Assembly (NCBI GenBank): GCA_028687375.1 | Contig: JAQUAG010000009.1 | Location: 1-64,000, forward strand | From: Arcobacteraceae bacterium | GTDB lineage: Bacteria; Campylobacterota; Campylobacteria; Campylobacterales; Arcobacteraceae | Length of the DNA: 64,000 nt | Reading direction: 5' to 3' | In this document: piece by piece, positions 20,327-34,264 of the stretch | Position numbering within the stretch: the stretch's first letter is position 1 | Layout of the letters: the number at the start of each line of letters is the position of its first letter | Notes under the pieces: model-generated | What the model saw: only the letters and a program-made list of their open reading frames with translations | Databases searched by the model: none | Told to the model about the DNA's origin: nothing | Position numbers and translations under genes: made by a program

Positions 20327-20345
20327 AATGGTGTCAAGAGAGGGA
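20327..20345 (-). repeat. attL: 19-bp direct repeat of the tRNA-Met 3' end
   Basis: The sequence aatggtgtcaagagaggga here is identical to 30203-30221, where it forms the CCA and 3' acceptor/T-arm side of the tRNA-Met gene. It marks the distal end of the integrated island. Only the tRNA tail is duplicated here. Confidence 0.88.
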
Positions 20346-20439
20346 GCAGGTTTTTAGGAAATTCAAAACTGCAAAAACCCCATAAATAAGGGCTTTCTAA
20401 AAATACAATTATACAAAAAGGTGGTCAAAATGAGTTTTT

Positions 20440-20458
20440 TTGGCGCAGTTTTGGAACA
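20440..20458 (+). repeat. Candidate integrase arm-type repeat, left end
   Basis: ttggcgcagttttggaaca here, 95 bp inside attL, is identical to 30134-30152 near the other end of the island. A one-mismatch copy lies at 20266-20284 in the older remnant. All three are in the same orientation. Their placement close to both ends suits integrase arm-binding or excisionase sites, which is an inference. Confidence 0.6.
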
Positions 20459-20517
20459 GTCATCATATTATAATTTCTTATATTATGGTTTATTTATAAA
20501 ATTAACACTATAAAATT

Positions 20518-20811
20518 TTATAATCTATCTGATGCCTTTTTATAAACTTCCATATCATCTCTTTTACCAATAGCTATAGTGTAGATAGATAATATATCAT
20601 CTTGTATTTCATACACAATTCTTACTTTCTTTTTAGCCACATAAACTTTTCTAAAACCACTTAAATCCATATTATTTTTATTACCCAATGGAAGTCCTAG
20701 TTGTGGTGATTCTTGTATTTGTTTTAATTTTTTAAAGACTTGAACTCTTAGTGAATGGTCAAGCTCTTTTAAATCATCCTCTACTTTTGGATGAACTTTT
20801 AACTCATACAT
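20518..20811 (-). CDS. RelE-family mRNA interferase toxin
   Basis: The ATG at 20809-20811 gives a protein of about 97 residues, MYELKVHPKVEDDLKELDHS, with FKKLKQIQESPQLGLPLGNK, LSGFRKVYVAKKKVRIVYEI and LSIYTIAIGKRDDMEVYKKA. The GFRKVYVxxKKxRIVYEI strand pair and the basic C-terminus are typical of RelE/StbE toxins, which cleave mRNA at the ribosome. A GTG start 12 bp upstream is possible but has no advantage. It overlaps the antitoxin stop region by a few bases. It lies just inside attL and may stabilise the island. Confidence 0.85.
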   Translation of the reverse strand: MYELKVHPKVEDDLKELDHSLRVQVFKKLKQIQESPQLGLPLGNKNNMDLSGFRKVYVAKKKVRIVYEIQDDILSIYTIAIGKRDDMEVYKKASDRL

Positions 20812-20812
20812 A

Positions 20813-21121
20813 CTACAAAGCACTCATATTGATATTAAACTTCTCTGCCATAGTATCGATTGAGATATATTCAGATTTATTAGTTTCTTTTCTATTTTGA
20901 ATAATCTCAAAAATCTCTTTATGTTCTAACATTTCCATCTTATTTTCAATCTCTTTAAGTCTTTCATATTCATCAGTTGAGATAACAACAGCTTCAAGTT
21001 TATTGTTTTTTAGCACACCAACTTTTTCTAAAGTTTGCTCTTTTATCTCCCCAAGCACTTTACTTAAAGATTTTGCAAAATCTGTGATTGATAATAATTC
21101 ATTTTGAGTATAACTTACCAT
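20813..21121 (-). CDS. Phd/RelB-type antitoxin
   Basis: This 102-residue protein starts MVSYTQNELLSITDFAKSLS and contains KVGVLKNNKLEAVVISTDEY then ERLKEIE, the Phd/YefM DNA-binding fold in which a strand of low complexity precedes ISxxxYE. Its C-terminal 50 residues (EIFEIIQNRKETNKSEYISI) are long enough to wrap the RelE toxin. It is upstream of and coupled to the toxin gene. The pair probably represses its own promoter in the 230-bp gap before 21354. Confidence 0.85.
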   Translation of the reverse strand: MVSYTQNELLSITDFAKSLSKVLGEIKEQTLEKVGVLKNNKLEAVVISTDEYERLKEIENKMEMLEHKEIFEIIQNRKETNKSEYISIDTMAEKFNINMSAL

Positions 21122-21353
21122 TTTAAAACTCCTATTTTATATATGTTAATATTATAGCGAATTTAATAGTGAATTTACACTTTATTTGAAATCTATATGA
21201 ATTAATAACATTAAGCATTATTTTTTGTATATTTTAGGTAAAATTTCAACATAATTTTATTAGAATTTGTATTAGCATATTCTACTTATTTAATTTTTAT
21301 AACTCGGGAGAATACTGAATTAGACATAAAATGTTCTTCAGTTAGCTTTATAC
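21122..21353. promoter_or_regulatory. Divergent intergenic region before the antitoxin and membrane-anchored unknown
   Basis: This gap of 232 bp lies between two divergent genes and is very AT-rich. A TATAT-rich stretch near 21135-21155 is the likely antitoxin promoter area. A purine-rich AACTCGGGAGAATAC segment near 21301-21315 is too far (about 40 bp) from the 21354 start to be its ribosome site. No other gene is seen. Confidence 0.3.
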
Positions 21354-22136
21354 ATGATAAAAACACTTTTTGCTTTTATAACTATAATAGGAATTGTATT
21401 TGCATTAATAAATGATAGCATAGGTGTTTATCAAAATTTTATAAAGGAAAAAAGGGCAGAAGATTCATTAGAATATTTAAATACGGGTCTTTCAATACAT
21501 TTTATAAAATCGATTTTTGGCGTCCCCATGGTAGAAAAACAGTATAAAAATTTAAATTTGTTTGAATACATATATTCTTTTCAAAAATTTTATTTACAAC
21601 TTGTATACGACCAAAACAATACCGTTAAGTTTTATGCCATAACGAGTAAGACAGAAGACTTTAATCCAAAAATTCCATTTATAAAAGATTTCAAAGACTT
21701 TATGGCTGGAGAACATTTAGTTACTCAAAATTTTAATAAAAAAATTAAGCCATTCACGGAAATAAGATTAGGAAAAGTAACTTTTTTCAATCTAAGTAAT
21801 TCAGCTAATATTCTTTATAGTAATTTATCTTCAAAGAACTATGAATATGCAGAATCAATTTATTTAGCAAATTCAGGTAACTACAGAAATTTATATTTAG
21901 CCTATGTTCCTGCAGGCTATGAGTTTTGTAATCAGTGTTATAGCAAAGGTGACTTCTTTTCAAGTGATAATGAATCAAAAAGTGAATTATTAGAACTAAG
22001 AAAAAAGTGCAAACCAAATACTTTTGGAATTGGTGATGTTTCTGATAGTGAATTTGAACAAATTTTCAGGTCTATGGAAATTACTATAGGTATAGATTAT
22101 TCAATAGCTAGGGACATACCATCATTAAATTACTAG
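21354..22136 (+). CDS. Membrane-anchored protein of unknown function (ETEC_3214-like)
   Basis: This 260-residue protein has an N-terminal membrane anchor or uncleaved signal (IKTLFAFITIIGIVFALIND, about 2-21). A soluble part begins with NTGLSIHFIKSIFGVPMVEK, then YIYSFQKFYLQLVYDQNNTV and, near the C-terminus, four cysteines (EFCNQCYSKG and RKKCKPN region). The opening resembles ETEC_3214-type proteins, whose function is unknown. That assignment is tentative. It converges on the STAND gene with a 302-bp gap and is cargo of the tRNA island. The cysteines suggest metal or disulphide structure. Confidence 0.7.
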   Translation: MIKTLFAFITIIGIVFALINDSIGVYQNFIKEKRAEDSLEYLNTGLSIHFIKSIFGVPMVEKQYKNLNLFEYIYSFQKFYLQLVYDQNNTVKFYAITSKTEDFNPKIPFIKDFKDFMAGEHLVTQNFNKKIKPFTEIRLGKVTFFNLSNSANILYSNLSSKNYEYAESIYLANSGNYRNLYLAYVPAGYEFCNQCYSKGDFFSSDNESKSELLELRKKCKPNTFGIGDVSDSEFEQIFRSMEITIGIDYSIARDIPSLNY

Positions 22137-22438
22137 AGGTATATGTTCAAAATATTTATACATCGGAAAAATTATAAGCTATTTTTAAATAAGATTATCA
22201 CACATTTACTCATCAGATTAATACAACAACCAGAACTAACATAATTTGCAAATTAATCCCCACTAATTCTATCATCATTCCTTGGTTTAGCACTTTCAAG
22301 TATATTATTTAACTTTGACATCATTCTTCAATGGTATCTCAATAAAAAATTCTATCGTATAGCACGATAAAAACTACAAAACACCGTTTTTAGATACTAC
22401 CACGATTAATGTAATTATTAAAGACTATATAGTCATTA
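22137..22438. other. 302-bp non-coding gap between convergent cargo genes
   Basis: No supported gene is visible. A small inverted repeat TATCGT-N5-ACGATA lies at 22353-22369 and could be an operator or weak transcription stop. A short 22-codon reading on the minus strand near 22255-22320 has no support. The gap separates the convergent membrane-anchored unknown and STAND genes. Confidence 0.4.
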
Positions 22439-25400
22439 CTAATTACTTATATTATATTTTTGATAGAAACGTTCAAAATTAATTTCATCTTGAAATGGAT
22501 AATCACTCTCATCGTATTGTATATTACTATTATTTTCAATACAATAAAAACTATAAATTAAAAATTTATATTGAAATTTAATAGCTAATTCTTTACCTTT
22601 TGCTAACCAAATAATATAATCATTGTCATTCTTTAATTTTAGTTGTTTAGTATAAAGAAGTATGGCATCAACATAATAATATTTAATATGAAAAAGTTTT
22701 TCAATTGCATTTTCAAAAAGTAATTTATTAAAATTTTCTTTATCTATGGTTGCTAACATTAAAAATTTTAATCCACTTGTAAAATCATTTGTTTTTACTA
22801 ATTTTTCTATCTCATTAATAGATAATAAATTTTCATTCGATTTAAAAAGAATATATGTTGTTTGTACATACTCTAAAATTTCTGATTTGTGTAAAGAGTT
22901 TCTATACTCAATTAATTCTTCAGTATTTAACCTCCCTGAATTTAACATAATTTCATAGTAAGTAAAGCTTTTTCTATATGTAAATAATTTGTGTTGATTG
23001 AGTTTATTTACTAATTTAAAACATCCGAGATAATACAAATGAGTAATACTTATATGGTTATCGAAAGAAACATACTTATTAAGAATATCTTTAACTAAAG
23101 CATATACATTTCCCTCCATATAATAAATATGCATAATTTCTATAAAAATTAAACTTTCTATTTTATTATTATTATCAAGTAGAAATATTTTATTATAAGG
23201 ATATTCTTTAGTAATTAAATTAAAAGTTTCATCGAAATTACCATAAAAATAATTTAAATTTAATATTGAGACTTTTAAAAATTTTTTAAATAATTCATTT
23301 TTTGTAGTAGATATTATATTTTCAAATTTAACAATTATTTTTTTATCATATAGTGTATTAAATGAAAGATAATTAACTAAATCACTAATAAATGACACCA
23401 TTCCTTCATTATATTTACAATGAGAGATATAATCTAAACATTTAATAAAATTATTTTTATTTCTATTAAATAAATTAACATTTATTTTTGAATTTATATC
23501 GGTATTTCTATATTTAGCAATAATATTACATAACATAAAATAATTGTATTCAAAAGCTTTTTCAAAATATTCTTTTTTTTCATCAATTGAACTCTTTGAA
23601 AATTTATATTCTGCAAACCTTCCGATTATAGATTGTAGTTTTATAAATTCACCACTTACTGTTATTAAAGATTTATCTTCCAAACTATTAACATCTTTAT
23701 AATCTATTTTATGTGGATTTAGCTTTTGTTCTTTTTGATTATAAAATAATATAAAATTCTTTTTATGTATACCATCAGGGAAAAGAGATAATAGTTCTAT
23801 CATTAATTTATACTTATCTTCTAAATATTCGAATGATAAACTAATAGAATAAAATAATGATTTGCTTTTTTCAATATTAGAATCACTCTCTTTAGAAAAT
23901 ACACTTTCAATAACTTCTTTTTCTGTTTTATCAGTTGTCATAAACAAATCTTTTGAAAGTTCTTCATACAAATCATAAACATTTAATTTTAATTTAGCAA
24001 CTAGTTTTATAGCAAGTGGATTTCTATTTAATATATTTTCAAGAATTTCATCTCTTAAAAACTTTTTTCCCTTTTCATCTAAAGTAATTGTATGTATTGA
24101 GGTATATAACTCAAACGATTCATTGAGTGTAAGATAATTAAGTGGATAAACTTCTTCATAATCTTCATCAATTTTCTCTCTAGATGTTATAATGATTGTT
24201 GAATAATAAGTAATATAAAATAATAAATCTTTAATTTTATTCACGTTTTCTATTCTATCTAAATGTAATAAAGTTTCAAAATTATCTAGTATTATCATTC
24301 TGTCTATACTTTTTACTAGACTAAGTTGTTCTTTGAATTCAATTGCATTATTCATTTGAAATACAATTTTTACTTTTTCTTCAAAATCTATATAATCTTT
24401 TAAATGTTCACAATCTATAAAATAAAATCCATCTTCAAAATAACCTCGTAAAGCAAATTCATTTGCTACCTTCTTAATAAGTGTAGTTTTTCCCATTCCT
24501 CCTGATGCCAATAGTGTATAAACTTTATTTGTATTTTTTATATTTATAATATCTCTTATTACATTCCTAATATCATGTTTTCTTCCTACGAATGTTTTTA
24601 AATCTTTTGAAATATTAAAGTCATTTGGAATATCACTATTTTCATAATTTATTTTTGGAGTTCCTTTTTTTATTTTTTGATGATACTCTTTATGAATAAA
24701 AGCATTAAATTTTTTTGTAAAGTTTTCAGAAAATGAAATAAAATTAAAATTGTGATAGTTAATTGTATTTTCTACGCTGTTTAGAGAAAATAGATGAAAT
24801 TTTATATTTTCATTATTTTTTGATATTTCGTCTAATTCTTCATATTTTAAGTCTATGGATAAAAAATTATCATCCTCTATTATTAAAGACTGCTTACTAG
24901 TTTTTGTAAAAATAAATATACTGTCGTATTCATCAATATTGTATAGATTCTCAAGATTTAAAATATGAACCTCTATATTTAAAGAATATTTAGTAAAATA
25001 ATCGATTATTTTACTAAAACTTATAAAACCACTATAGTCTTGATTAACTGGTGATGTATACATAATAGCTATTTTATTCAAAAGATTTATATTTTTTTCT
25101 TTTAATACGATATTTTTTTCTAGCGATTGTTTGATTTCGGTTTTTTTTGTATTAAAAAATTGTTTTTGCTTTAAAAAATGATTTTCTAACTCTTGAAAAT
25201 CTTTCACCTCGTGATACAATTTACCTTCATCTTCTAAAAAAGCTTGTAAATTCAATATTTTTCGTAATTCACGTTTATCAATCTGATTATTATCAATTTC
25301 AAAGAAATAGACATAAATTCTATTGATTCTCCTCCCTAATTCATTATATGATTCTTCAAATTCTTCTTGTGTGTATTTTCCAAGTCGTGATTTAATCATA

Positions 25401-25582
25401 AAAATTACAATATCACTTTCTTTTAATTCCTCTTCATTTATTCTCTCTTGAAATTTTTCTATTGTAATTGATTGATCTAAATCTTCCCATAATATTGGTG
25501 TATAGTCATTGTCATAACAAAGTATTTTTAGATTTTTTCTTTCCTCTGATAAATCTCCACTTGAAGCAATAAAAATTCTCAT
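22439..25582 (-). CDS. STAND NTPase with DUF4062/TIR-like N-terminus, probable NLR-like defence protein
   Basis: This 1047-residue single-gene protein has four visible parts. Residues 1-140 form an alpha/beta domain (RIFIASSGDLSEERKN, ESDIVIFMIKSRLGKYTQEE) like DUF4062/TIR-fold effectors. Residues 170-300 form a second alpha/beta unit with YDSIFIFTKT. Residues 330-540 form a STAND/NB-ARC ATPase with FVGR at 331-334, Walker A ASGGMGKTT at 359-367, Walker B MIILDNFE at 429-436, sensor IIITSRE at 463-469 and NRNPLAIKL. A helical C-terminus of about 450 residues likely senses the trigger. This is the plan of Avs/bNACHT-type anti-phage proteins. It has an AAAGG ribosome site. Confidence 0.82.
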   Translation of the reverse strand: MRIFIASSGDLSEERKNLKILCYDNDYTPILWEDLDQSITIEKFQERINEEELKESDIVIFMIKSRLGKYTQEEFEESYNELGRRINRIYVYFFEIDNNQIDKRELRKILNLQAFLEDEGKLYHEVKDFQELENHFLKQKQFFNTKKTEIKQSLEKNIVLKEKNINLLNKIAIMYTSPVNQDYSGFISFSKIIDYFTKYSLNIEVHILNLENLYNIDEYDSIFIFTKTSKQSLIIEDDNFLSIDLKYEELDEISKNNENIKFHLFSLNSVENTINYHNFNFISFSENFTKKFNAFIHKEYHQKIKKGTPKINYENSDIPNDFNISKDLKTFVGRKHDIRNVIRDIINIKNTNKVYTLLASGGMGKTTLIKKVANEFALRGYFEDGFYFIDCEHLKDYIDFEEKVKIVFQMNNAIEFKEQLSLVKSIDRMIILDNFETLLHLDRIENVNKIKDLLFYITYYSTIIITSREKIDEDYEEVYPLNYLTLNESFELYTSIHTITLDEKGKKFLRDEILENILNRNPLAIKLVAKLKLNVYDLYEELSKDLFMTTDKTEKEVIESVFSKESDSNIEKSKSLFYSISLSFEYLEDKYKLMIELLSLFPDGIHKKNFILFYNQKEQKLNPHKIDYKDVNSLEDKSLITVSGEFIKLQSIIGRFAEYKFSKSSIDEKKEYFEKAFEYNYFMLCNIIAKYRNTDINSKINVNLFNRNKNNFIKCLDYISHCKYNEGMVSFISDLVNYLSFNTLYDKKIIVKFENIISTTKNELFKKFLKVSILNLNYFYGNFDETFNLITKEYPYNKIFLLDNNNKIESLIFIEIMHIYYMEGNVYALVKDILNKYVSFDNHISITHLYYLGCFKLVNKLNQHKLFTYRKSFTYYEIMLNSGRLNTEELIEYRNSLHKSEILEYVQTTYILFKSNENLLSINEIEKLVKTNDFTSGLKFLMLATIDKENFNKLLFENAIEKLFHIKYYYVDAILLYTKQLKLKNDNDYIIWLAKGKELAIKFQYKFLIYSFYCIENNSNIQYDESDYPFQDEINFERFYQKYNISN

Positions 25583-25771
25583 AAAATACCTTTTAATAAT
25601 TTGTCAAAATTATAGAGCAATTAACGTAATAAAAACTTTAAGTAAAAATTAAGGAAATATTACATTTTAATTACTCATCTAAATTTTACAATAAAATTGT
25701 CACAGATACTGTCACAAAATGAGAAATTCCAAAATTCATTAAATATATAATTTCTTTGTTATAATTTAATC
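25583..25771. promoter_or_regulatory. Divergent promoter region between the STAND gene and the rep operon
   Basis: The gap holds two direct copies of TGTCACA at 25698-25704 and 25710-25716 (12-bp period), a possible operator. A perfect TATAAT at 25760-25765 lies 6 bp before the ATG at 25772, leaving almost no leader for the rightward gene. The leftward STAND gene has its ribosome site near 25590. The close pairing suggests joint control of defence and replication genes, which is an inference. Confidence 0.5.
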
Positions 25772-26875
25772 ATGGAGAGTCAAATACAATCAAAACTAAG
25801 TCTAAAAAACTTCAATGATTACCTTAATAAAGTTGATAAATCAAATCTACACTTTGTAGAAGGATGGACAAATAAAAAAGAGCATATAAACAATACCTTT
25901 AATCTCTACTTTACAAATATTCAACAAAAACAAATTTTTATTGATTCAGAACTAGAAGAATTAAAAGATTGGTTTATGGATATCTCAAAACTTCATAAAA
26001 GCGTAGACTGTAACAATATTTATCCTAAAGCAAATAATATTAAAACCGAAGCAATAATATTTAATGATAAACTTATTTTAAAAGAGTGTTTTAATTTATT
26101 ACATTTGATATACCAATATCACAATGCATATATTCTTAAAATTGAACGAGAAGATGAATTACAAGATACAATCTACCATATAAGCCAAGATAAACACGAG
26201 ATTCAAAAGAAATACAATAAATTTGATAAAGAATCTACTAATTATAGAAAAAATAAAAAACATAGAGCACCATTTGTAATAGCTAAAAAAGTATTGAAAC
26301 TTTTATTATCTAAAAAATATAGCTTTAGAGCAAAATACTATATAAATTCATTAGCATTAAACTTTAATATTTATAATTGGGACAAATTATTTAATGATGA
26401 AGATGAAATCGCGAAAGAGATACTTTTTGAAGTAATAAATTATTTTATGTATTCAAACTTATCAGAAAAGAAAATCAAAAACTCACTTATGATATTAGTT
26501 TATACATTTTTAACTACACGACTACGTTTAAAAGAAAAAGACTCCCTATCTCTTACAAATAGACTATGCAATAGTATTTTATATGATATAGATAATAAAT
26601 TAGACTATAGAAAAAGTGAACTCTCAAAAAAAATATATGCATATAGAGTATTTAATTATCTTCCAATATTTGCCCATGAAAATCCAAAATATACCCCTAA
26701 ACTAAATGATGAACAAGAAAAAAAGATATTACAAACAATAAAGAAACATTCATTTAATGCAAATAAATCTTTTAAATACTTTGATGAAAAATATTTTATA
26801 GATACGATGAAAAACTCTCATGTAAACTATGTTATGCATGACCTTATATTCTTATATAACTCTAAAGAGGAGTAA
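25772..26875 (+). CDS. Unknown 367-residue island protein
   Basis: The protein is lysine- and asparagine-rich, soluble and mostly helical. Visible segments are LHFVEGWTNKKEHINNTFNL, FNLLHLIYQYHNAYILKIER and HRAPFVIAKKVLKLLLSKKY. The central part (about 130-180) is a charged coiled-coil-like stretch followed by the basic AKKVLKLL helix. No family is recognised. It is the first gene of the rightward rep-xis-int group and starts divergently from the STAND gene. No Shine-Dalgarno sequence precedes the ATG and the TATAAT box is 6 bp away, so the mRNA may be leaderless. Confidence 0.7.
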   Translation: MESQIQSKLSLKNFNDYLNKVDKSNLHFVEGWTNKKEHINNTFNLYFTNIQQKQIFIDSELEELKDWFMDISKLHKSVDCNNIYPKANNIKTEAIIFNDKLILKECFNLLHLIYQYHNAYILKIEREDELQDTIYHISQDKHEIQKKYNKFDKESTNYRKNKKHRAPFVIAKKVLKLLLSKKYSFRAKYYINSLALNFNIYNWDKLFNDEDEIAKEILFEVINYFMYSNLSEKKIKNSLMILVYTFLTTRLRLKEKDSLSLTNRLCNSILYDIDNKLDYRKSELSKKIYAYRVFNYLPIFAHENPKYTPKLNDEQEKKILQTIKKHSFNANKSFKYFDEKYFIDTMKNSHVNYVMHDLIFLYNSKEE

Positions 26876-26987
26876 AATCTACAAAAAAAGAGGAAAAAAA
26901 TCATTTTCCCAATCTTTAAATTCCAAATATAATTCTTTATCAATTGAAATACAAAAAATAATCGCGATTATCCAAAAAGGATAAAAA

Positions 26988-27200
26988 ATGTTAAAAATAG
27001 TTGGAACACTCACAAAGATTAGTGCTTCAAAAGACAAAGGTATATTACATATATCAAATATAGTTAATTTTGATTTTATAGAGATAACTGAATTTGAAAC
27101 GATTGAGATACCACTCAAAAAACTTTCAAAGTATAAAAATAAAATCAATCAAACAATAAGTGTAGATGTAGCTATAAAAATAGTTTATATAGGTATCTAA
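26988..27200 (+). CDS. Small OB-like protein before the Rep gene
   Basis: This 70-residue protein, MLKIVGTLTKISASKDKGIL then HISNIVNFDFIEITEF and EIPLKKLSKYKNKINQTISV, alternates short beta strands and resembles a compact OB-fold. In filamentous phages and RstAB-like modules a small ssDNA-binding protein lies next to the Rep gene, and this position matches. The match is by size, predicted fold and context only. An AAAAGGAT ribosome site lies upstream. It is 116 bp before the Rep start. Confidence 0.6.
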   Translation: MLKIVGTLTKISASKDKGILHISNIVNFDFIEITEFETIEIPLKKLSKYKNKINQTISVDVAIKIVYIGI

Positions 27201-27214
27201 GTTTATAAGAAAAA

Positions 27215-27290
27215 ATAAAATCTGCACGGACGGTAGGAGTACAGATTTTATCTTTTTTCAAGAATAAGAGGGGTTTCTAGTAACACCCCT
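27215..27290. other. Two adjacent hairpins before rep, candidate replication origin or terminator
   Basis: Hairpin 1 pairs ATAAAATCTG (27215-27224) with CAGATTTTAT (27242-27251) around a 17-nt loop containing CGGACGGTAGG, and a T-run follows. Hairpin 2 pairs AGGGGT (27269-27274) with ACCCCT (27285-27290). The tandem structure in the gap before a Rep_trans-like gene could be the rolling-circle double-strand origin. The first hairpin with its T-run also fits a terminator. Confidence 0.5.
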
Positions 27291-27316
27291 TTCTTAAACA
27301 CAAAAAGGAAAAATGA

Positions 27317-28657
27317 ATGAACGAAATTAAAACGATATGTGGCATTGATACACTTTATTATTTTTGTGAATCAAATAAAAACTATGATAATTTATTTTTG
27401 GAAGTTTTAGACCAAATAGAATTTCAAAAAGGTAGATTTGAAAAAAGAGATATTGAGTTTGAAAATAATGATATCAATGTCATTTTACAAAATGAGTATA
27501 TTTTTAAATATCTTGGTAAGGCTCAAGGGTTTTATTGGTTAAGAGATTTTAGAGAATATTTTAAAATTGGATTTAAAGATACAAAATCAAATCAAGGGTT
27601 AAATGATATCTATGTACAACTTGAAGCAAATGGGATATATACACTAGGTATAAAATCACTTTTAGAACTTATCAATGATAATTTACTCAAAGATTTTACA
27701 ACCTCTTATTATCCACTTACAAGGGTAGATATAAACTGCTTTATAAATTATGACTTCTCATTTCTAACTAAAGAGATGTTTGTAACACGAAAAAGAAATT
27801 ATGCAACAGTAAGTGAAATAGGAACATCAAATGCCACTCAAACTATCTATGTTGGTAAAAAGCCTTTTTTACTTAGAATCTATAACAAACTTGAAGAACT
27901 CAAAAAGTCAAAGAAACTTCCTATGATGAATCAATACTTTTTAAATAATGGGCTTAGTGTAGATGAGCCAATATTTAATATAGAGTTTGAACTCCATAGA
28001 ACACATTTAAAACAATTAGAGATATTAACTCTTGATAGTTTACTTGAAAATGTAAATGCTTTATTTAAAATCTCTTGTGATGAGATACGAATGATTGAAC
28101 TTGAAAGCATTTCAAACAATGATAAACAACATAATAAATATAAAGCTACAACCCATCCAATATGGGAACAAATAAAAGAGAATTATACTTTTAATGAATT
28201 TCATCAAACAGCTCTCCCACTTGAAAGAATTAAACGAGCTATATCAATCTATGATGAAAATAAATTTGAGTTGGAGTTTATTTATCTTATTAGAAAAGGT
28301 GTAATAAATAATCTTCCATTGAATAATGAATATATCCACTCTTTATATCTTAAAGCAAAAGAATCTCTCACACAATCTCACAATAAAATATCTTCAAAAA
28401 AAGGTTATGTTGATATAAAAATTGATTATCCAAATAAACCTAGTAAAACTTTGCGATATTTAAAAGAGAGTAAAGAGATTATTAAACCAGTAAATACAAT
28501 TTCACTAAATGAGCTTGGAGATTATGATTTACAAGTGCATTATGAAAAAGCTCTTAAAAGCAAAGATGATTCTGAGCATCACAAAGATATCTATTTTATA
28601 GCACTAAAAGAGATGATTAAAAGAGGATTATTAGCAGATTATGGAGATGAACTATGA
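27317..28657 (+). CDS. Rep_trans/RstA-like replication initiation protein
   Basis: This 446-residue protein has the pattern of the replication initiation factor family found in filamentous phages, RstA and ICE replication proteins: IDTLYYF near the start, YYPLTRVDINCFINYDFSF, IYVGKKPFLLRIYNKLEELK and IFNIEFELHRTHLKQLEILT. The RIYNKLEE...E.E..R core holds the metal and tyrosine region of these HUH-unrelated nickases. The C-terminal third (ISSKKGYVDIKIDYPNKPSK) is less conserved. It would nick the element origin for rolling-circle replication. The HTH gene overlaps its stop by 4 bp. Confidence 0.7.
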   Translation: MNEIKTICGIDTLYYFCESNKNYDNLFLEVLDQIEFQKGRFEKRDIEFENNDINVILQNEYIFKYLGKAQGFYWLRDFREYFKIGFKDTKSNQGLNDIYVQLEANGIYTLGIKSLLELINDNLLKDFTTSYYPLTRVDINCFINYDFSFLTKEMFVTRKRNYATVSEIGTSNATQTIYVGKKPFLLRIYNKLEELKKSKKLPMMNQYFLNNGLSVDEPIFNIEFELHRTHLKQLEILTLDSLLENVNALFKISCDEIRMIELESISNNDKQHNKYKATTHPIWEQIKENYTFNEFHQTALPLERIKRAISIYDENKFELEFIYLIRKGVINNLPLNNEYIHSLYLKAKESLTQSHNKISSKKGYVDIKIDYPNKPSKTLRYLKESKEIIKPVNTISLNELGDYDLQVHYEKALKSKDDSEHHKDIYFIALKEMIKRGLLADYGDEL

Positions 28658-28959
28658 ATATAAATTTTGAAAACTTAGAAAAGATAAATGATATTTTACT
28701 CAAACTCAACGAGCTTGAATCAAAAATATCAGGTCAAAAGCGGTGGTTTAATATCAATGAAATTTCAGAATATACTGGATATTCAGTTGAACATATTAGA
28801 AATCTAAAAGATAGTGATTTTATTGAAAATAAACACTACTACAAAACAAAAGGGAAATTATTATTTGATAAAAATATGATTGATAAGTGGATTACTTCAA
28901 ATCCTAAAAAAGTAGATGCAAAAGAGATTGTGTCAAATATTTTGAAAGATTTAATATGA
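28654..28959 (+). CDS. Helix-turn-helix protein, probable excisionase/regulator
   Basis: This 101-residue protein has an N-terminal helical stretch (ENLEKINDILLKLNELESKI) and a MerR/AlpA-like DNA-binding part, RWFNINEISEYTGYSVEHIR then NLKDSDF and KGKLLFDKNMIDKWI. This is the standard layout of excisionase-like proteins encoded next to a tyrosine integrase. It overlaps rep by 4 bp (ATGA) and lies 66 bp before the integrase, so it is part of the same transcript. Confidence 0.72.
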   Translation: MNINFENLEKINDILLKLNELESKISGQKRWFNINEISEYTGYSVEHIRNLKDSDFIENKHYYKTKGKLLFDKNMIDKWITSNPKKVDAKEIVSNILKDLI

Positions 28960-29025
28960 TGTATAGTAAAATTTTTCGTTTTAGAAAGCACTTATTTTAT
29001 GGCTATATGTGAAAGGAATACATAG

Positions 29026-30120
29026 ATGCATAAAATAACACAACCAAAACTTTATTCACGAGGTAATAAACTATGGATAAGGTTTACTTTAAATAATGAT
29101 GTGATTAAAAAATCGCTCAATATTGAAGATACTAAAGCTAATAGAAAATTAGCAACAACACAAATAATCCCGCAGATGATTTTAAAAGTTTCTACGGGAG
29201 AGTTCTTTGAAAATGACATTGTTGAAAAAGTACCTTTGTTTGAAGATTTTGCAGAACTTAGTTTTGAACTTCATAAATCATCTAGGAAAGTAACAACACT
29301 AAATCGATATAAAAGTAATTATAATAAGCATTTATTGCCCTATTTTAAAGGAAAAAGACTCGATGAAATCAAACCAAGTCATATCTCTTTGTGGCAAAAT
29401 AAAATGCTTGATTTGGGGCTATCTCCAAAAAGAATAAAAGATATCAGAATAGTTTTAAGTGTAATACTTGAAGATGCAGTTTGTGACGAAATCATCACGA
29501 GCAATGCTGTAAGAAAAGTTTCTAAACTACCAATGCAAGCACCACCACAAATAAATCCATTTTGTTTGGATGAGATAAAAGCTATCTTACACCATGCAAC
29601 AGGACAATTTAAAAACTTTTTTGCAGTAGCGTTTTTTACTGGAATGAGAACGGGAGAAACTATTGGCTTAAAATGGGAAGATATAGATTTTAATCAAAAT
29701 GAAATCTCAATAAAAAGAACAATTAATAAAGGGATGGAAACTACCCCTAAAACGATTGGAAGTGTTAGAACGATTGAAATCTTACCAACACTATTAAAAT
29801 TTTTGAAAAATCAACACTCATTAACGGGAGATAAAAACTCTTATGTTTTTTTAAATGGAAATGATAAAAATTATTTTGATAGTAATAAAATAAGAGATTA
29901 TTCTTGGAAAACTACTTTAATCAATGCAGGTGTAAGCTACAGAACAATCTATAATACTAGGCATACATTTGCAAGTTTGATGATTAGTAAAGGCGAAGAT
30001 ATTCTTTGGGTTTCTCATATGTTAGGTCATAGTTCTACTGAAATGACTTTGCGACGATATGCAAAATATATTAAAAATGAACAAAAGAAAAGAGCTACTT
30101 TTTTAACAACAGAAATATAA
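29026..30120 (+). CDS. Tyrosine recombinase integrase
   Basis: This 364-residue protein carries an N-terminal arm-binding domain, a core-binding SAM-like domain at about 70-165 (FEDFAELSFELHKSSRKVTT) and a catalytic domain. Catalytic residues are Arg208 (FFTGMRTGETIGLKW), Arg312 (YNTRHTFASLMI, with Tyr in place of the usual first His of HxxR), His335 (HMLGHSS) and nucleophile Tyr345 (RRYAKY). It integrates the island into the tRNA-Met 3' end 85 bp downstream. The ribosome site is GAAAGGA. Confidence 0.93.
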   Translation: MHKITQPKLYSRGNKLWIRFTLNNDVIKKSLNIEDTKANRKLATTQIIPQMILKVSTGEFFENDIVEKVPLFEDFAELSFELHKSSRKVTTLNRYKSNYNKHLLPYFKGKRLDEIKPSHISLWQNKMLDLGLSPKRIKDIRIVLSVILEDAVCDEIITSNAVRKVSKLPMQAPPQINPFCLDEIKAILHHATGQFKNFFAVAFFTGMRTGETIGLKWEDIDFNQNEISIKRTINKGMETTPKTIGSVRTIEILPTLLKFLKNQHSLTGDKNSYVFLNGNDKNYFDSNKIRDYSWKTTLINAGVSYRTIYNTRHTFASLMISKGEDILWVSHMLGHSSTEMTLRRYAKYIKNEQKKRATFLTTEI

Positions 30121-30133
30121 AATTGGTACAAAA

Positions 30134-30152
30134 TTGGCGCAGTTTTGGAACA
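30134..30152 (+). repeat. Candidate integrase arm-type repeat, right end
   Basis: This is an exact copy of the 19-bp motif at 20440-20458, located between the integrase stop and attR, about 50 bp from the core. Its position mirrors that of a typical P-arm site. A one-mismatch copy in the older remnant is at 20266-20284. Confidence 0.6.
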
Positions 30153-30202
30153 ATCGGCTTCTTTGATTCTTGGAAAGGCTTATTTTAAGGGCTGTTTGAG
30201 GA

Positions 30203-30221
30203 AATGGTGTCAAGAGAGGGA
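30203..30221 (-). repeat. attR: 19-bp core repeat within the tRNA-Met 3' end
   Basis: Identical to 20327-20345 (aatggtgtcaagagaggga). On the minus strand it covers the tRNA CCA, acceptor 3' strand and part of the T-arm, so integration leaves the tRNA gene intact. Confidence 0.88.
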
Positions 30222-30281
30222 CTCGAACCCTCGACCTCCGGCTTATGAGACCAGCGCTCTAACCAGCTGAGCTACCTTGAC
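30205..30281 (-). tRNA. tRNA-Met (anticodon CAT)
   Basis: Reading the minus strand, the 77-nt gene starts GTCAAGG, has the D-arm AGCTCAGCTGGTTAGAGCG, the anticodon loop CTCATAA and the T-loop GGGTTCGAGTC. It ends TCTTGAC + A + CCA. The acceptor arms pair over seven positions with one G-U. The CAT anticodon with a standard first pair suggests elongator methionine tRNA, although a lysidine-modified isoleucine tRNA cannot be excluded from the sequence alone. CCA is encoded. The 3' end is the integration site of the island. Confidence 0.95.
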
Positions 30282-30390: not shown

Positions 30391-31719
30391 TTATAGAATA
30401 TATCTAGCCATATCCTCGTTTTTAACTATCTCTTCAAGTTTTTCTTTTACTAACGATTCTGTAATGATAATAGTTTCACCGCTTTTCTCATCAGCATCAA
30501 AACTAATATCTTCTAAAACTTTTTCGATAACTGTATGAAGTCTTCTAGCTCCTATATCTTCTGCTTTTTCATTTGCATTTACGCTTAGTCGTGCAAATGC
30601 TCTAATTGCAGCATCTTCAAACTCTAAAGTGACACCTTCCACACCTAAAAGCGATTGGTATTGTTTTAGAAGTGAATTTTTTGTACTTGTAAGGATTTGA
30701 TACAGTGCCTCTTCATCAAGGGGATTTAGCTCAACTCTTAGAGGGAATCGCCCTTGTAATTCAGGCAATAAATCACTTGGTTTACTTACGTGAAAAGCCC
30801 CAGCTGCTATAAAAAGGATATGGTCAGTTTTGATTTGCCCATATTTTGTATGGACGCTACTACCTTCTACTATTGGAAGTAAATCTCTTTGAACTCCTTC
30901 TTTACTTGGGTCTTGGTTTTTATTGTTATTTCCAGAAGCAATTTTATCTATCTCATCAAGAAAAATAATCCCGCCATTTTCACATCTTTTGATAGCTTCC
31001 TCTTTGATAGATTCTTTATCGAGTAAATCTTCGCTAGCTTCAAGTCTTAAAAGTTTTTTTGCCGTTGCGATAGGCACTTCTTTTTTGATTTTATTTTTAT
31101 CCATTTTCCCAAGCATATTGTTTAAGCTTTCACTAACAGCACTCATATCCATAGGAAGATTACTATCGATTATCTCAATATGTGTTTTTTTAGGAAGTTC
31201 GATTGTGATGATTTTTTCATCCATAGTTCCATTTAAAACTTTTGATTCCATCAAATTATATGTTTTGATAAAAGATTCCTGAGCATCTTCGCTTGCACCT
31301 TTTGGAAGTGGTGGAACTAAAATCTCAACAATCTTTCGTATAACCTCTTTATCAATCTCTTCTTGGATTTTTTCTTCATACTCTTTTGTTACAAGATTTA
31401 TCGATTCATAAGCCAAATCCCTAATCATAGACTCAACATCTCTTCCAACAAAACCAACTTCAGTATATTTACTTGCTTCAACTTTTACAAAAGGAAGATT
31501 CATCATTTTTGCCATTCGTCGTGCAATCTCTGTTTTTCCTACCCCTGTACTTCCTATCATTAGGATATTTTTAGGCATAATATCTTCTTGCAATTCAGGC
31601 GATAATTGCATCCTTCTGTATCTACTTCTAAGAGCTAATGCTATTGTTTTTTTAGCATCATTTTGCCCAATAATATAATCATCAAGATATGTTACTATCT
31701 CTTTAGGTGTCATATTCAT
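30391..31719 (-). CDS. hslU: ATP-dependent protease ATPase subunit HslU
   Basis: This 442-residue AAA+ unfoldase begins with [20 protein letters not shown] then KTIALALR and has Walker A GSTGVGKT at 56-63, the [20 protein letters not shown] pore/I-domain junction and Walker [16 protein letters not shown]. Sensor 2 is [15 protein letters not shown]. The C-terminal MARYIL tail inserts into HslV to activate it. The length is that of the family. The start overlaps the hslV stop by 4 bp, so the two subunits are translated together. Confidence 0.97.
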
Positions 31720-32267
31720 GAATTATTTCCGTCTTTTAAAGTTAAAATTTTAATATTTTGATTTGTATAAATACAAAGTTCTCCAGCTATCATAAGTGAT
31801 TCTTTCACTAACTCTTCTGGATTAAGTTGTGAATGTTTTTTTAAAGCACGAGCAGCTGAAATTGCAAAATTTCCACCACTTCCGATACTTGCTAAACATC
31901 CATCTTCAGGCTCAACTACGTCACCTGTACCACTTAAAATAAAGATATGTTTTTCATTTAGCACAAGCATCATAGCTTCAAGCCGCCTGAGCATCTTATC
32001 TTTTCTCCAAGCTTTAGAAAAATTCACAACAGCTTTGAGCAAATCCCCTTTTGTATTTTCAAGTTGTTCTTCAAACATATCAAAAAGATTAAAAGCATCA
32101 GCAGTGCTTCCTGCAAATCCAGCCAATACTTTATCTTTATAGAGGGTTCTAATTTTTGTAGCATTCCCTTTTAAAATAGTATTTCCAAAAGTAACTTGAC
32201 CATCACCACCAATTACAGCAATTCCATCTTCACTTTTATATGCAAGTATCGTTGTAGCATCAAACAA
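31716..32267 (-). CDS. hslV: ATP-dependent protease peptidase subunit HslV
   Basis: This 183-residue threonine peptidase has the N-terminal [20 protein letters not shown] then [13 protein letters not shown]. The catalytic threonine at about residue 5 or 6 is exposed by removal of the short propeptide. [24 protein letters not shown] and [20 protein letters not shown] then [11 protein letters not shown] are family hallmarks. Twelve subunits form the proteolytic core that HslU feeds. It lies 10 bp after rplI and its stop overlaps the hslU start. Confidence 0.97.
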
Positions 32268-32277
32268 TTTTAAATCC

Positions 32278-32724
32278 TTATAGTGCGATTACATCGATAG
32301 TTAAGCTAGCATTTTGGCTATGCCCTAGTTTACAATCTGCTGTAAAAATTCCTATTGTTTTTATAGGATTTTTAAGTGAAATATGTTTTTTATCAATATC
32401 TAGTTGAAATTGTTCATGTAAAGCGTGAGCTATCTCTTTATTTGTAATACTTCCAAAAAGATGGCTATTTTCTCCAACTTTATGTTTAATAGTAAGTTTT
32501 AAAGCTTCAATCATCTCTTTTTGTTTTTTAGCCACATCTATTTCAGCTTCAAGTTTTGCTTTCATCTCTTTTTGGTTTTCTTCCCACTCAGCCATAACAG
32601 CAGGAGTAGCGTGTTTAGCGAAACCTTTTCCAATTAAAAAGTTTTTCCCATAACCATCACTTACCTCTTTAATCTCTCCAGCTTTTCCTAAACTTTGTAC
32701 ATCTTTTATTAATAATACTTTCAT
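32278..32724 (-). CDS. rplI: 50S ribosomal protein L9
   Basis: This 148-residue protein has the L9 signature at its start: [20 protein letters not shown] then [21 protein letters not shown] long connecting helix ([20 protein letters not shown]) leads to the C-terminal domain with [20 protein letters not shown] and [16 protein letters not shown]. It binds 23S rRNA in the large subunit. The rplI-hslV-hslU order is a recognised Campylobacterota arrangement. It starts 5 bp after the FTR-rhodanese gene. Confidence 0.97.
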
Positions 32725-32729
32725 TATTT

Positions 32730-33470
32730 CTATTCCCCTTTTATAATTTTTCCTCTATAAGTCATAATCCCTTGTCTATAGTTAGAAACTTGTTTCCATC
32801 CCATATCTTTAAGAACTTCTTGACAATAAGCACTTCTACTTCCGCTAAAACAATATAAAATTGTTGGCTTCTCTTTTTGATTTTCAATTTGCCCTAATTG
32901 ATTGTAAAATGTTGTTGTTGGTATCAAATAATCAGTCCCAGCAATTCTACCTTGTTTCCACTCCATCCACTCTCTAACATCAACAAGATTAAAATCAACC
33001 ATACCAAGTTCTCTTGCTTCAAGAAGTGATTCAATCTCATCACCATCAAGTTGAGGATGTTTAAGTATCGCTTCACACTCCTCTTTTGTAAGTCCTCTTG
33101 AATGCGCATGTGCGACCTCTTCGGCAGCTATCTCAATAGCATTTGCTTTTGCATACTCAGGTGTACAAAAAATTCCACAGTGACAATGTCCATCTTCTGG
33201 TATTTCATGCTCGATTGCTGGTTTGCAAGGACAGATTCTATTATCCGCAGCATTTCTCTCCTCTTTTGTTTCACCTATAACCATAAAACAAGGGCAATAT
33301 CTTTTATTAAAAATAAGTTTGTTTCTCGTAAGCCCCATTATTACACCCTCATTTACATCCTCTATAGGATTATAAACCCAACCTTTGCTAGCACACACTT
33401 TATCTGTAAATATTTTTGTTTTTTCTTGCTCTTCAATAAACTCTTGTGAATTCATATCTATTTTAATCAT
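32730..33470 (-). CDS. Ferredoxin-thioredoxin reductase catalytic domain fused to rhodanese
   Basis: This 246-residue protein has two domains. Residues 10-115 contain YCPCFMVIGETKEERNAADN then RICPCKPAIE and GHCHCGIFC, the six cysteines (59, 61, 80, 82, 96, 98) in the CPC...CPC...CHC order of the FTR catalytic subunit, which holds a 4Fe-4S cluster and a redox-active disulphide. Residues 125-150 form a linker. Residues 155-246 are a rhodanese domain with active-site Cys207 in LYCFSGSRS. The role in a non-photosynthetic bacterium is unknown. A thiol/sulfane-sulphur redox function is inferred. Met6 is an alternative start. Confidence 0.9.
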   Translation of the reverse strand: MIKIDMNSQEFIEEQEKTKIFTDKVCASKGWVYNPIEDVNEGVIMGLTRNKLIFNKRYCPCFMVIGETKEERNAADNRICPCKPAIEHEIPEDGHCHCGIFCTPEYAKANAIEIAAEEVAHAHSRGLTKEECEAILKHPQLDGDEIESLLEARELGMVDFNLVDVREWMEWKQGRIAGTDYLIPTTTFYNQLGQIENQKEKPTILYCFSGSRSAYCQEVLKDMGWKQVSNYRQGIMTYRGKIIKGE

Positions 33471-33514: not shown

Positions 33515-34264
33515 TTATACATTTTTCATATTCTTTGGTATTATAATCGTAAAACAGGCACCATAATAACTCTTTTCATTTAATTCAAACTGAGTATTTT
33601 TTGCTAGTAAACTCCCTTTAAAATGCTCTTCTATAATATTTTTTGACATAGTAAGCCCTATTCCAGTTCCACCATTATCCTCTTTTGTTGTAAAATGTGG
33701 ATTGAAAATTCGTGGAAGAATATCTTCTGGAATCCCACCTGCATTATCATAAATATCAATTCTAATATTTTCATCTTCATCAATAACATCAACTTTAATA
33801 ACTTTTTCTTCAACTTCATTCATTAAAATAGCATCTTTTGCATTGTTTAAAATATTGATGACAACTTGAGCAAATTCCCTTCCATATCCATAACACTCTA
33901 CATCTTCATTAGTAAATGTTTTGTATATTTTAATCCCTTTTGCTTTTAGAAGTGGTTCGATTATAGATTCAATCTGCTTTAAATTTTCATTTATTTTAAA
34001 GAAAAACTTTACTTTGTCCTCTTTTAGAAAATCTCTGAAATCATCTATAGTTTCCGCTAAATATATTGTACGATTAATGATATTATTCAAAGATTCTTCA
34101 AATGTTTCATCATCCATCATCCCTATCTCTTTTTGAAATTTAAGACCAGTTGCTTCAGCATTTATAGCATTAAGTGGCTGTTTAAATTGATGGATGATAT
34201 TTTCAAACATCCCACCTAGCATAATTAACTTCTCTTCTTGAGTATTATGTATCGTAGTTTCCAT
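33515..34264 (-). CDS. Soluble histidine kinase without a sensor domain
   Basis: This 249-residue protein is only a kinase core. The dimerisation helix carries ENIIHQFKQPLNAINAEATG with the phospho-acceptor His at 25. The ATPase part shows VINILNNAKDAILMNEVEEK (N-box), IDIYDNAGGIPEDILPRIFN then PHFTTKEDNGGTGIGLTMSK (G boxes). No membrane segment, PAS or receiver domain is present, so the input must come from a partner. Its start overlaps the ispH stop at 34264 by 1 bp, giving an operon that begins at pheS. Confidence 0.88.
   Translation of the reverse strand: METTIHNTQEEKLIMLGGMFENIIHQFKQPLNAINAEATGLKFQKEIGMMDDETFEESLNNIINRTIYLAETIDDFRDFLKEDKVKFFFKINENLKQIESIIEPLLKAKGIKIYKTFTNEDVECYGYGREFAQVVINILNNAKDAILMNEVEEKVIKVDVIDEDENIRIDIYDNAGGIPEDILPRIFNPHFTTKEDNGGTGIGLTMSKNIIEEHFKGSLLAKNTQFELNEKSYYGACFTIIIPKNMKNV

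Follow-up and report, generated by a model that had tools for sequence, protein, structure and literature searches.

A single-chain fusion of a ferredoxin-thioredoxin reductase catalytic domain and a rhodanese in Campylobacterota, and its possible role as a ferredoxin-fed persulphide reductase

In the genome of an Arcobacteraceae bacterium, we identified a gene whose product joins the catalytic domain of ferredoxin-thioredoxin reductase (FTR) to a rhodanese in one chain. The protein is genuine and widely conserved among free-living Campylobacterota, and it seems not to have been studied. By analogy with NADH-driven CoADR-rhodanese enzymes, it may be their Fe-S counterpart, a ferredoxin-driven persulphide (sulphane-sulphur) reductase that frees bound sulphur as hydrogen sulphide; we put this reading forward tentatively, at somewhat less than an even chance. 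The window is the whole stretch of DNA that was analysed, 64,000 nucleotides long, and its features are collected in Table 1. In the labels used below, G denotes genomes, L loci, and f families.

Table 1. Features of the window and the basis on which each was named
Feature	Position	Strand	Basis or remark
FTR catalytic domain-rhodanese fusion protein, 246 aa	32730..33470	-	ORF with ATG start
FTR catalytic domain (C59, C61, C80, C82, C96, C98)	33108..33425	-	PF02943 match
Rhodanese domain, active-site loop CFSGSRS (C207)	32757..33026	-	PF00581 match
rplI (ribosomal protein L9), next gene	32278..32724	-	Pfam; 5 bases from fusion stop to rplI start
hslV protease subunit	31716..32267	-	By eye; homologues in same order in relatives
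hslU ATPase	30391..31719	-	By eye; homologues in same order in relatives
Histidine kinase (HisKA + HATPase_c), 249 aa, directly upstream of fusion	33515..34264	-	Pfam
Tyrosine integrase	29026-30120		On the 20330-30221 element
Rep_trans match, weak, sub-threshold	27317-28657		On the 20330-30221 element
1047-aa protein, DUF4062 + NB-ARC matches	22439-25582	-	On the 20330-30221 element

Results

Pfam matched FeThRed_B at residues 16-121 (E 2.5e-34; 117.9 bits against a cut-off of 22) and Rhodanese at residues 150-238 of the same chain (E 3.6e-13; 50.3 bits against 22.2), scores that lie far beyond chance. The protein fits the FTR catalytic family PF02943, with a profile match above the curated cut-off and six cysteines in three CxC motifs (C59-P-C61, C80-P-C82, and C96-H-C98). 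It also fits the rhodanese/sulphurtransferase family PF00581, where the match is above cut-off and the loop C207-F-S-G-S-R-S carries CxxGxR, which we take to be the rule for the active-site loop of rhodaneses. At E up to 0.01, Pfam gave no further family in the protein, the FAD/NAD-binding pyridine nucleotide disulphide reductase domain included; the fusion thus stands outside Npsr/CoADR-RHD membership, which says nothing against its working in a similar way. Chance or misreading is ruled out by the two independent profile matches together with the recurrence of the fusion among sampled genomes (see below), and an assembly artefact by full-length relatives, 89-93% identical, in other genomes of the genus.

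An initial annotation had described the FTR cysteines CPC, CPC, and CHC and a rhodanese active-site cysteine in one chain, set in the rplI-hslVU operon and lacking a nearby FTR variable subunit. The cysteines are in place, with C207 as that of the rhodanese; the gene lies directly before rplI, hslV, and hslU; and the variable subunit family, PF02941, had no match in the entire own assembly, which is 99.67% complete. Among 14 control genomes, PF02941 was matched in Synechococcus only. As judged by the variable subunit, the own genome does not hold the classical two-subunit FTR of oxygenic phototrophs. This is less telling than the initial annotation implied, since rubredoxin and glutaredoxin FTR-family fusions are likewise not known to have a variable subunit. 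The fusion is the one PF02943 match in the own genome and one of eight rhodanese matches. That genome also holds one NADPH thioredoxin reductase match above cut-off and three matches to PF01558, a family matched in 11 of the 14 controls; its POR-type genes could reduce ferredoxin.

The fusion belongs to a minus-strand run of pheT, aroA, ispH, the histidine kinase, the fusion, rplI, hslV, and hslU, separated by short gaps or overlapping. While rplI and the kinase were named by Pfam, the other neighbours were named by eye. The kinase, in which Pfam found no sensor domain, is the next gene upstream in several own-genus genomes and is missing from this place in L003 and L007. No sulphur enzyme was seen among the genes adjoining the fusion in the window. 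Near the gene, no inverted repeats were found, and promoter-like and terminator-like sites were in no excess over shuffled sequence.

The order fusion-rplI was kept in all seven own-genus genomes with an intact gene (G000, G001, G002, G003, G005, G006, and G007); G004, which holds a cut piece of the gene, is outside this count. At 10 loci representing other genera of the family (L008, L010-L016, L019, and L021), rplI was absent from the flanking sequence covered, at most about 1.5 kb to either side. An rplI setting limited to one genus and L018 is ruled out by the f16 and f18 genomes of the 200-genome sample: among genomes with a full-length fusion, the order was found in 14 of 15 from f16, the exception being G043, and in both from f18. 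An argG-like gene lies upstream in all 15 of these f16 genomes, and hslV was not found within the stretch examined in G203. In G194 (f13), an FTR-only gene precedes rplI-hslVU. A different setting occurs at several Arcobacteraceae-type loci, where clpA, a cytochrome c lipoprotein, and an aat-like gene come before the fusion (cytochrome c named by Pfam match, clpA and aat by eye), with neighbour clusters at 10, 13, and 10 of the 91 loci that have neighbours. ATP-dependent protease genes, hslVU or clpA, thus recur near the fusion in several lineages.

We searched 200 Campylobacterota genomes, drawn evenly from a larger group, by profile at a threshold of E 1e-20. There was a match in 58 genomes and none in the other 142. 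The initial annotation had proposed to trace the phylogenetic spread of the fusion, and a conserved family emerged, uninterrupted and full length in 46 of the 200 genomes, the own genome included. Six of the 58 matching genomes carry the FTR part only (G027, G046, G062, G064, G069, and G194), two carry both halves as separate, unlinked genes with no fusion and with a rhodanese of the same subfamily (G030 and G126), and three have only the rhodanese at this threshold (G092, G146, and G222). The copy in G072 is interrupted. When PF02943 was searched alone, it was found in 56 of the 200 genomes. In a separate protein search, 31 of 41 genomes matched, the own genome among them, although these were not all fusions.

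Split and rearranged forms accompany the fusion in several lineages. In family f15, it lies behind an FTR-only gene (G038, G042, G073, G116, G061, and G072), and this pairing also occurs at L091 and L128. By locus, the tandem was noted at L110-L114, L128, and L162, and small proteins follow it in L110-L114 and L128. A rhodanese-only gene stands where relatives carry the fusion in G021 and at L121 (2584-3021), the latter at the clpA-cytochrome c place, and the L121 gene looks as though its FTR half had been lost. Diverged FTR-family proteins with another C-terminal part were seen at L117 (1697-2374, 225 aa) and L120 (1735-2382, 215 aa); the one scanned, from L117, matched no other Pfam family. 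A diverged FTR-family protein of 215 residues also occurs in G092, which is rhodanese-only by the threshold above. A tree of 78 FTR domains, 64 from fusions and 14 from FTR-only proteins, required four changes between fused and solo forms, of which at least two are forced by well-supported branches; the tree rests on few columns and has 26 open forks. Balsera and colleagues have reportedly worked on FTR evolution.

Phyla beyond Campylobacterota were otherwise reached through a pattern scan of contigs, from which the best 80 of 93 confirmed loci were used. One fusion outside the phylum, at L095, comes from a record titled Flavobacteriales and neighbours an M28 peptidase and a class II tRNA synthetase that we called lysS by eye. 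Across 296 genomes of its phylum, L095 among them, it was the only whole-profile match among the matches listed by E-value, the next best of which (E 1.1e-18) covers the rhodanese part only. Transfer or misbinning is possible for L095. Two further fusions, in L022 (titled Helicobacter pylori) and L023 (titled Desulfosporosinus), are 93% and 92% identical to that of the window and share its gene order, and these are likely mislabelled bins.

For residue conservation, we aligned 55 rows (the window, 50 other fusions, and four FTR-only proteins) from 53 of the best 80 loci, picked by hand for diversity; the other 27 loci include near copies and cut pieces. The six FTR cysteines are invariant in all 55 rows, and all 51 fusions keep them together with C207. 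Also invariant in the 51 fusions are G210, R212, S213, D164, R166, and E167, while H97 is kept in 50 and an extra cysteine, C102, in 48. CRC replaces CHC in L012 and L013, two fusions that were not part of the alignment. Conservation is somewhat favoured among the scanned loci because the scan relied on patterns of short peptides, two of them placed over cysteine motifs; the whole-genome searches used sequence or profile. Distances in the FTR and rhodanese domains correlated over the 51 fusions (r 0.63), a value that has no control and says little.

The predicted model of the fusion is confident for the domains (mean pLDDT 91.1) and has a pTM of 0.68. Its N-terminal half matched FTR-family chains and its C-terminal half rhodaneses. 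With Z 15.7, rmsd 1.1, and 98 aligned residues, the best rhodanese match was 3tp9, which combines a beta-lactamase fold with a rhodanese. Other matches included the rhodaneses of Bacillus anthracis CoADR-RHD 3ict (Z 14.5, rmsd 1.6, 97 aligned), the persulphide dioxygenase-rhodanese 5ve4 (Z 14.0, rmsd 2.5, 105 aligned), and the persulphide reductase 3nt6 of S. loihica (Z 13.3, rmsd 2.2, 93 aligned). The persulphide enzymes do not outscore stand-alone rhodaneses, and with 3tp9 as the best match, the rhodanese fold match is not specific to persulphide chemistry. Among the matches listed from structure and profile searches of the PDB, no solved chain matched both halves.

Several known proteins share one part of this architecture. 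The FTR catalytic subunit (PF02943, 1dj7) resembles the fusion in its three CxC motifs and fold (1dj7_A, Foldseek E 1.7e-4, 28% identity), whereas the fusion has an attached rhodanese, no variable subunit in the genome, and the extra C102; the spacing of its CxC motifs is presumably also longer than in plant FTR. Two solved FTR-family chains were found by profile at E 1e-6. In 4tpu, which we take to be the Methanosarcina acetivorans ferredoxin disulphide reductase, the FTR-family stretch spans chain residues 6-105, and the partner domain is a rubredoxin according to the chain label rather than a rhodanese. The second, 7pwe, is a Desulfotalea psychrophila glutaredoxin/ferredoxin disulphide reductase (Z 11.6, rmsd 2.4, 95 aligned, against model residues 9-111). 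Like the fusion, it joins an FTR-family domain to a thiol-handling domain; its partner, however, is a glutaredoxin placed ahead of the FTR part (chain residues 84-179). No publication on 7pwe was found in the literature searched. The FtrB double-selenoprotein family NF041072 has the same FTR domain (E 2.3e-14), but the fusion has cysteines and scores 53.2 bits against a cut-off of 160. In two papers, an FTR selenoprotein is named, and rhodanese-like selenoproteins are named separately from it (PMC2398784, PMC13188914). A list of [4Fe-4S] FTR/FDR enzymes appears in a third (PMC7278568), and the text examined of the Arcobacter butzleri genome paper mentions neither "rhodanese" nor "thioredoxin reductase" (PMC2147049).

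Discussion

FTR-family fusions are already known, with structures solved, and the rhodanese partner appears to be the new element here. The initial annotation had allowed for a protein already well characterised under another name. We found no such description of an FTR-rhodanese fusion in the PDB or in the literature searched, which took in few subscription journals and is therefore weak evidence that none exists; public domain listings may well already contain the architecture.

The initial annotation suggested a route that starts at reduced ferredoxin and ends at either a persulphide or a thioredoxin-like target, and this sequence would be compatible with it. For a persulphide reductase, C207 would take up sulphur, with polysulphide, thiosulphate, or a small persulphide as the donor, and hold it as Cys-S-SH. 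A [4Fe-4S] cluster would sit on C59, C80, C82, and C96, with C61 and C98 as the redox pair beside it, an assignment that we assume from plant FTR. Ferredoxin, as the putative donor, would give the FTR domain single electrons, and this domain would then cleave the rhodanese persulphide, release HS-, and reset both sites. The reading is drawn by analogy from the NADH persulphide reductases (Npsr, CoAPR), in which, according to two studies, the C-terminal rhodanese takes the sulphur and the disulphide reductase domain supplies the electrons (PMC7969121, PMC9405070). The rhodanese cysteine is described there as the first sulphur acceptor (PMC7969121) and as the one persulphidated in cells (PMC9405070). 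In both systems, a disulphide reductase carries a catalytic rhodanese at its C-terminal end, and in the fusion the FTR domain occupies the place of the reductase, although Npsr and CoAPR use FAD, NADH, and CoA chemistry and their reductase half comes from another family.

The persulphide-reductase reading also draws on the architecture itself and its full-length recurrence among the sampled genomes; on the six FTR cysteines and the rhodanese Cys, Gly, and Arg being kept in every aligned fusion, with H97 in all but one; on the separate NADPH thioredoxin reductase; on the presence of 3ict, 5ve4, and 3nt6 among the rhodanese matches; and on the three PF01558 matches and the coexistence of FTR-only and rhodanese-only genes in the fusion-free G030 and G126. 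Against it stand the halves found alone, the lack of a linked sulphur gene, the unspecific fold match, and the pTM of the model, which leaves the proximity of the two active sites uncertain. Its main rival is a conventional FTR-type ferredoxin:disulphide (or thioredoxin) reductase, with the rhodanese as a delivery or docking domain and sulphur chemistry secondary. FTR-only relatives with all six cysteines in several families, the tandems of FTR-only gene and fusion in f15, L091, and L128, and the rubredoxin- and glutaredoxin-labelled chains already solved all agree with such a role. However, the conserved Cys, Gly, and Arg of the rhodanese go beyond the needs of a mere dock, and general thioredoxin reduction need not rely on the fusion because the genome already has a separate NADPH thioredoxin reductase. 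We regard this rival as somewhat unlikely.

The sulphur might instead pass from the rhodanese to a biosynthetic acceptor (an Fe-S cluster, tRNA, or cofactor), the FTR domain keeping the cysteine reduced or freeing sulphide for cluster assembly. Rhodanese-only copies exist, another rhodanese gene lies slightly downstream in L111, and a small protein follows the fusion in f15 and L128. Both small proteins of L128 had Pfam matches below cut-off only, one of them to the dinitrogenase iron-molybdenum cofactor family (E 0.027; 15.2 against 26.3 bits). Nevertheless, no acceptor gene is linked to the fusion across families, and four f15 neighbour proteins (two in L110 and one each in L112 and L113) had no Pfam match, and we consider such a sulphurtransferase improbable. 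Neither half strictly needs the other, given the FTR-only and rhodanese-only genomes and the gene in G021. This would suit two unrelated activities joined only through co-translation, as would the uncertain packing of the domains at this pTM. But a fusion kept at full length in several families, with both active sites intact in all of the aligned copies, makes that the least likely account, and we think it very improbable.

Should the fusion be a persulphide reductase, sulphane-sulphur reduction would draw directly on low-potential electrons from ferredoxin in bacteria that are common in sulphidic habitats, and the FTR core would have been retargeted through a swap of the attached domain. That it represents an Fe-S-based class, encoded beside hslVU or clpA, for cytoplasmic, NAD(P)H-independent making or clearing of sulphide in free-living Campylobacterota is a broader proposal, which we offer as doubtful. 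The Nautilia profundicola genome paper ascribes cytoplasmic polysulphide reduction to an NAD(P)H enzyme; neither "rhodanese" nor "thioredoxin reductase" occurs in the main text of that paper (0 occurrences each; PMC2628731).

Elsewhere in the window, direct repeats flank an AT-rich stretch of about 9.9 kb (20330-30221; GC 0.21-0.27), and the right-hand repeat overlaps a tRNA-Met gene (30205-30281) at its 3' end. The stretch is probably an integrated element. Its 1047-aa protein is a STAND-type NTPase, perhaps with a role in defence, for which PADLOC gave no match at E 1e-5. Two adjacent small ORFs on the minus strand (20518-21121) resemble, by eye only, a RelE/Phd-type toxin-antitoxin pair.
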